This document shows positions 28,615 through 30,353 of a DNA stretch of 64,000 bases, piece after piece. Location: contig VGXS01000007.1 of NCBI GenBank assembly GCA_016873225.1, positions 61,496 to 125,495 of the forward strand. The letters are read 5' to 3'. The position numbers were made by a program, and so were the translations under genes. The notes under the pieces are model-generated. The model did no database searches. It saw nothing but the letters and a program-made list of their open reading frames with translations, and was not told the origin of the DNA. Each line of letters opens with the position of its first letter. Within the stretch, counting starts at the first letter, position 1. The stretch is from Planctomycetota bacterium. Lineage in GTDB: Bacteria > Planctomycetota > Planctomycetia > Gemmatales > Gemmataceae.

Positions 28615-28779
28615 CCGGCAAGGATTACCCCGTCCACGCCATTGGCCAAATCGACAGATTATCCTTGCGGACTTGGTTGCCCCCGTGCCGTTGCGCCGGT
28701 TGGGTCCCTATAAATAAATTTGTTCGGATATCAAGAAGCCGAGGGACCACATCCCGACCATTTCACCGAGCACCACTTC

Positions 28780-28856
28780 CACGAGGGGCGCTGCGACGGC
28801 ACAACGGTGCCTGCCAGGCTCGCGGGGGCGGAAAACCTGAAACGGCGCCCGTTCAT
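28780..28856 (+). promoter_or_regulatory. S-adenosylhomocysteine (SAH) riboswitch
   Basis: cACGAGGGGCGCTGCGACGGCACAACGGTGCCTGCCAGGCTCGCGGGGGCGGAAAACCTGAAACGGCGCCCGTTCA matches the SAH riboswitch core: P1 CGAG/CTCG, GCGCTGC, GCCAGGCTCG, and pseudoknot GGGCGC/GCGCCC; immediately upstream of ahcY. Confidence 0.94.
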
Positions 28857-28876
28857 TGTTTCAGGAGACTTTGAAC

Positions 28877-30298
<1,422 letters not shown>

Positions 30299-30325
30299 GA
30301 CTTCGTCATCCCTTGAAACGAACGA

Positions 30326-30353
30326 GCCCGCCGGACAACCGGCGGGCTTTTTT
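30326..30353 (+). terminator. Rho-independent terminator downstream of ahcY
   Basis: GCCCGCCGG-ACAA-CCGGCGGGC followed by TTTTTT. Confidence 0.93.

Follow-up and report, generated by a model that had tools for sequence, protein, structure and literature searches.

S-Adenosylhomocysteine (SAH) riboswitches are ON switches. Surveys have placed them mostly in Beta- and Gammaproteobacteria and in Mycobacteriaceae (PMC3766115), they lie upstream of ahcY and often occur with metF (PMC4239095), and SAH regulons have been proposed to have co-evolved with ahcY (PMC3766115; PMC4239095). The SAM/SAH riboswitch RF01727 binds SAH too (PMC7367207), but has another fold and is found with metK in Rhodobacterales (PMC4239095). 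Our literature search for SAH riboswitches in planctomycetes returned no relevant paper, and the lineage may already be contained in the Rfam listing.

The 64,000-nucleotide stretch of DNA analysed here (the window) comes from a planctomycete of the family Gemmataceae. When the whole window was scanned with the Rfam families (cmscan), the SAH riboswitch family RF01057 matched positions 28777-28857 of the plus strand over the full, untruncated model (1-78 of 78) with 51.5 bits (E 1.4e-6; gathering score 37 bits); RF01727 gave no match in the window at the gathering threshold. RF01057 matches nowhere else in the 4.25 Mb assembly and in none of the 14 control genomes. By its score, its P1/P2/pseudoknot architecture and its site upstream of ahcY, the element is a member of RF01057. 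The preliminary description had proposed an SAH riboswitch about 20 nt before ahcY, and the covariance model bears this out well over threshold: the ATG at 28877 lies 19 nt past the end of the match and 26 nt past that of the pseudoknot, and the four conserved blocks named in it are in place (CGAGG 28782-28786, GCGCTGC 28788-28794, GCCAGGCTCG 28813-28822 and GGCGCCC 28844-28850). It was also right about the downstream gene, whose product is an adenosylhomocysteinase according to TIGR00936 (608.5 bits against a cut-off of 497.6), PF05221 and PF00670, and about the planctomycete host, whose relatives include Limnoglobus roseus and which has PSD1/PSCyt and DUF1501 neighbours of planctomycete type. 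As an intrinsic terminator sits at about 30324, ahcY appears to be transcribed alone. The features of the leader and gene are as follows:

28777-28857, plus strand: SAH riboswitch aptamer (RF01057 match, cmscan)
28773-28785, plus strand: P1 5' strand with core CGAG at 28782-28785, partner 28819-28831 (8 of 13 pairs changed on both sides)
28819-28831, plus strand: P1 3' strand, partner 28773-28785
28798-28811, plus strand: P2 hairpin, GGCAC 28798-28802 with GTGCC 28807-28811 (compensatory changes)
28786-28791, plus strand: pseudoknot 5' strand GGGCGC (from the sequence; paired in all 44 aligned leaders)
28845-28850, plus strand: pseudoknot 3' strand GCGCCC, preceded by conserved AACG 28841-28844 (from sequence and alignment)
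28851-28876, plus strand: Shine-Dalgarno hairpin, GUUCA 28851-28855 with UGAAC 28872-28876, inner GUUU 28858-28861 with AGAC 28866-28869
28863-28867, plus strand: Shine-Dalgarno AGGAG, 9 nt before the ATG (read from the sequence)
28836-28847, plus strand: predicted anti-pseudoknot 5' strand, ACGGCG 28842-28847 and CCU 28836-28838 (minimum-energy fold, leader plus gene start)
28882-28892, plus strand: predicted anti-pseudoknot 3' strand within ahcY, CGCCGU 28882-28887 and AGG 28890-28892 (minimum-energy fold)
28836-28865, plus strand: predicted alternative hairpin, CCUGAAAC 28836-28843 with GUUUCAGG 28858-28865 (minimum-energy fold of the short leader)
28877-30298, plus strand: ahcY, S-adenosylhomocysteine hydrolase, 473 aa (TIGR00936, PF05221, PF00670)
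30324-30353, plus strand: intrinsic terminator after ahcY (11-pair stem, 4-nt loop, T run)

Covariation was assessed on an alignment of 44 leaders, 40 from planctomycetes and four from Proteobacteria. In this clade P1 reaches 13 positions, the copy in the window containing two A-C mismatches, and eight of the 13 pairs show changes on both sides. In P2, compensatory changes were found at all five counted pairs, the third pair being poorly aligned. Every cell of the pseudoknot is paired throughout the 44 sequences, with one pair changing from G-C to A-U. Over the whole structure 91.1% of cells are paired, compared to 35-50% in slid versions, and 14 pairs carry double changes against 6.7 in shuffles, a number that none of 500 shuffles reached; the structure scores above nearly every shuffle and every slid version. 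The predicted P1, P2 and pseudoknot helices are thus supported by compensatory changes. The pseudoknot in the window, GGGCGC/GCGCCC, had been described beforehand as a compensatory variant of the Ralstonia GAGCGC/GCGCTC, the common proteobacterial form, and both forms do occur among the proteobacterial relatives compared. We infer that the window RNA binds SAH.

Downstream of the aptamer, nearly all of these planctomycetes carry GUUCA directly after the pseudoknot strand and UGAAC just before the start codon, forming a hairpin that encloses the Shine-Dalgarno sequence (generally about -7 kcal/mol; the window copy has -7.9 kcal/mol). Of 51 distinct planctomycete leaders, 44 contain the stem, where 5.3 would be expected; among 43 leaders from Proteobacteria the number is 12, with 3 expected, and AUUCA/UGAAU occurs there too. 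It is nearly invariant in planctomycetes and so draws no covariation support there, the supporting changes being at the first pair, where G-C has become A-U in some Proteobacteria, and at a sixth, which is U-A or C-G. Translational control, as suggested in the preliminary description, fits this anatomy, with the Shine-Dalgarno sequence 13 nt past the pseudoknot and no terminator between aptamer and ATG. Transcription termination was considered for the window and rejected; the sole terminator-pattern match in that interval, at 28841-28853, comes from the self-complementarity of the pseudoknot strand (AACGG/CCGUU) and lacks a proper U run. The only genome with the element in a second family of the order (f2) is built differently. 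There (L111:1500-1670) an intrinsic terminator uses the pseudoknot 3' strand as its 5' arm, and we posit a transcriptional platform with the same ON logic, unlike the translational one proposed for the main clade.

According to our analysis, the window element is very probably a functional SAH riboswitch that exerts translational ON control of ahcY. We posit that, when SAH is lacking, AACGGCG on the aptamer's 3' side would pair with the first ahcY codons. AACGGCG includes part of the pseudoknot strand; the pairing would exclude the pseudoknot and close a long hairpin across the Shine-Dalgarno sequence and start codon, giving the OFF state. Bound SAH would stabilise P1 and the pseudoknot and withdraw the AACGGCG strand from the codons, leaving only the short GUUCA/UGAAC hairpin, which ribosomes should be able to open, so that a build-up of SAH would switch on ahcY translation. 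We likewise infer the ON direction and the anti-pseudoknot switch, and give pairing with the coding region about an even chance of being the off state. In the minimum-energy fold of the window, ACGGCG does not form the pseudoknot but pairs with CGCCGU in the region of ahcY codons 2-6, and folding the leader and gene start of a relative (L009) yields a similar pairing of tail and early codons, GCAACGGCG with CGCCGUUGC.

In a folding model that leaves out pseudoknot energy and ligand, imposing the aptamer structure makes the start site of the window cheaper to open, at 8.9 instead of 13.2 kcal/mol (4.3 less), and a drop is seen in 41 of 45 leaders, with a median of 3.9 kcal/mol. When the early codons were shuffled synonymously, the median drop was 0.4, and the observed value lay above this control in 40 of the 45 leaders, whose shared ancestry makes the p-values overstate significance. 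Codon usage points the same way. The N-terminal valine preceding alanine is encoded by GTT, which pairs with AAC, in 27 of 31 genes, compared to 9% in the remainder of the gene, and codon 4 has T in 32 of 44 cases, compared to roughly 15-45% at codons 2, 3, 8, 9 and 10; this bias speaks against the codons being simply chosen for weak folding around the start. The early synonymous codons look selected for pairing with the aptamer tail, although, given the shared ancestry and a model that omits pseudoknot energy, this lends support and falls short of proof. The window itself is not the strongest example: its leader plus early gene is no more stable than shuffles (z 0.16), and its codon duplex (-11.1 kcal/mol) is weaker than that of many relatives and not below synonymous controls, a fraction of 0.43 of which were as low. 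The four Shine-Dalgarno nucleotides alone, too narrow a target, showed no difference between the free and bound forms (median 2.11 and 2.08).

An SAH riboswitch in this place could also have as its off state the clade-specific CCUGAAAC/GUUUCAGG hairpin rather than pairing with the coding region. This perfect 8-bp stem covers part of the Shine-Dalgarno sequence, dominates the fold of the short leader and, because it takes up the conserved AAAC, competes with the aptamer. It is confined, however, to the window and its 97% sister and absent from other relatives, and it gives way to the anti-pseudoknot stem once the fold takes in the first 45 nt of the gene. We consider a hairpin of this kind a somewhat unlikely off state.

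RF01057 is not peculiar to the window's genome, but common in Gemmataceae and Isosphaeraceae. Among 98 Gemmataceae genomes 34 have it, as do 35 of 105 in the order. In 34 of these 35 it lies directly upstream of ahcY on the same strand, while in the remaining one (G059) the switch is at one contig end and ahcY at the end of another contig. Of the 299 genomes sampled from the class, 49 contain it, 22 of them Isosphaeraceae, a family that includes Paludisphaera soli, as do all 19 planctomycete loci gathered by AhcY protein search. Two genomes with the element, those of Singulisphaera acidiphila and Limnoglobus roseus, are closed, which rules out contamination of metagenome-assembled genomes (MAGs) as a general cause. 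Phylum-wide the family is rare (7 of 399 genomes, five of the seven matches being weak, in a search whose filters lose weak matches). The lineage had at first been thought worth recording since known examples were mostly proteobacterial with some actinobacterial; this agrees with the surveys and with our literature search, but the element is no rarity in these two families, named strains included.

Several neighbouring observations may be recorded here. The SAH riboswitches in a family of another class of the phylum (f39; L142, L143, L144, L145 and L148) are compact, their P2 being very short and their pseudoknot GAGTGC/GCACTC. Two of them, before ahcY in L144 and L145, score 33-35 bits, under the gathering score, with core blocks intact, and RF01057 therefore probably misses this variant. 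In G379 (L142:1501-1563) a second SAH riboswitch adjoins a divergent metF-like ORF and precedes a possible metE gene in another frame. Thiothrix/Thiolinea have a pair of SAH riboswitches separated by about 1.3 kb, of which the second precedes ahcY (L056:160-242 and 1440-1529; L075:1608-1684 and 2880-2969). Two MAG records titled Candidatus Kuenenia stuttgartiensis (L003, L005) have an AhcY and riboswitch that group with Gemmataceae/Isosphaeraceae, so that these names look wrong. Two Acido-Lenti-1 RNA matches (RF01687) lie on the minus strand beside one ahcY locus (L015:1839-1884 and 2025-2069).

Within the window's order, AhcY falls into three types by identity to the window protein (at least 79%, 66-71% and about 40%), and the riboswitch was found only with the first. 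The types are distributed patchily even inside one genus, usually with one type per genome. Using cmscan, no RF01057 was found in G035 (AhcY 81%), in G036 (76%), or in G184 (81%), which lies outside the class; there was also no match in G080, whose AhcY is of the first type or near it and whose gene is assembled only as a fragment. Beyond the phylum, the closest AhcY come from Proteobacteria (82-86% identity to that of the window), nearly all with RF01057 upstream of their genes, and the riboswitch-type planctomycete AhcY is closer to these than to the other types of its own family (66-71% and about 40%). In a tree of Planctomycetota and close proteobacterial matches rooted on the 40% type, the 42 AhcY of riboswitch-bearing planctomycetes and that of G059 form one clade (SH-aLRT 98), nested in a set that holds Proteobacteria (SH-aLRT 99) and leaves the 66-72% planctomycete type outside. 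The f2 copy (L111) stands apart from the main clade, and uniting them was rejected (AU p 0.019). That the switch accompanies an AhcY type shared with Proteobacteria suggests that switch and ahcY crossed together between Planctomycetota and Proteobacteria. As the AU test did not reject a tree with all planctomycete AhcY on one side (p 0.41), we regard an exchange between the phyla as likely and claim no direction for it.

That surviving tree, and a sampling limited to Planctomycetota and close proteobacterial matches, would also suit a history without any transfer, in which the riboswitch type and the 66-71% type, as old paralogues, descended vertically and disappeared from different lineages. 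Patchy types within a genus, in genomes that mostly hold only one, speak against such paralogy, as do the grouping of the riboswitch type with Proteobacteria, away from other planctomycete AhcY, under the 40% outgroup and the separate position of the f2 copy. We judge purely vertical descent to be unlikely. It is much less probable still that a transferred aptamer still binds SAH yet has lost its regulatory role in planctomycetes, as one might think from the many genomes of the same family that run ahcY without the element: the aptamer helices still covary across two families, pseudoknot and core are nearly invariant, and the early codons suit the leader better than their synonymous controls in most of the leaders, as given above. 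A chance match or another RNA resembling RF01057, for which only the general caution speaks that a model match is not function, is for practical purposes already refuted by the full-length match of 51.5 bits before the expected gene, its absence from the control genomes and its occurrence at the same position in dozens of relatives.

Returning to the proposed coding-region switch, we tentatively posit, with confidence just short of even, that the start of the ahcY coding sequence is a functional part of the riboswitch in Gemmataceae and Isosphaeraceae, its synonymous sites having been selected for the anti-pseudoknot, in a unit of switch and gene exchanged between Planctomycetota and Proteobacteria. 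The RNA itself belongs to a known class, and the parts of interest are the codon-based platform and the gene-linked transfer. A riboswitch class placed mainly in Proteobacteria by surveys reaches a large part of two planctomycete families, and it offers a clean case in which the presence of a riboswitch goes with the gene's allele rather than with the species phylogeny. The proposed platform, in which coding sequence would take part in the switch, is testable.

Compared with the RF01057 family, the elements of the window's clade share P1, P2, the pseudoknot, the core blocks and the site upstream of ahcY, but differ in a P1 of about 13 positions and a compact leader in which the Shine-Dalgarno hairpin abuts the pseudoknot. 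Thauera loci have a P4-like hairpin, whereas the linker before the pseudoknot strand in the window's clade is without one. For Proteobacteria as a whole, the early codons have a weak influence (19 of 28 exceed the control; median 2.9 compared to 1.8). Some compact proteobacterial leaders (L022, L053, L058 and L076), which belong to AhcY among the nearest outside the phylum, carry the same RUUCA stem after the pseudoknot strand, over the Shine-Dalgarno sequence or start codon, and differ from the planctomycete leaders in that the start codon lies within the stem.
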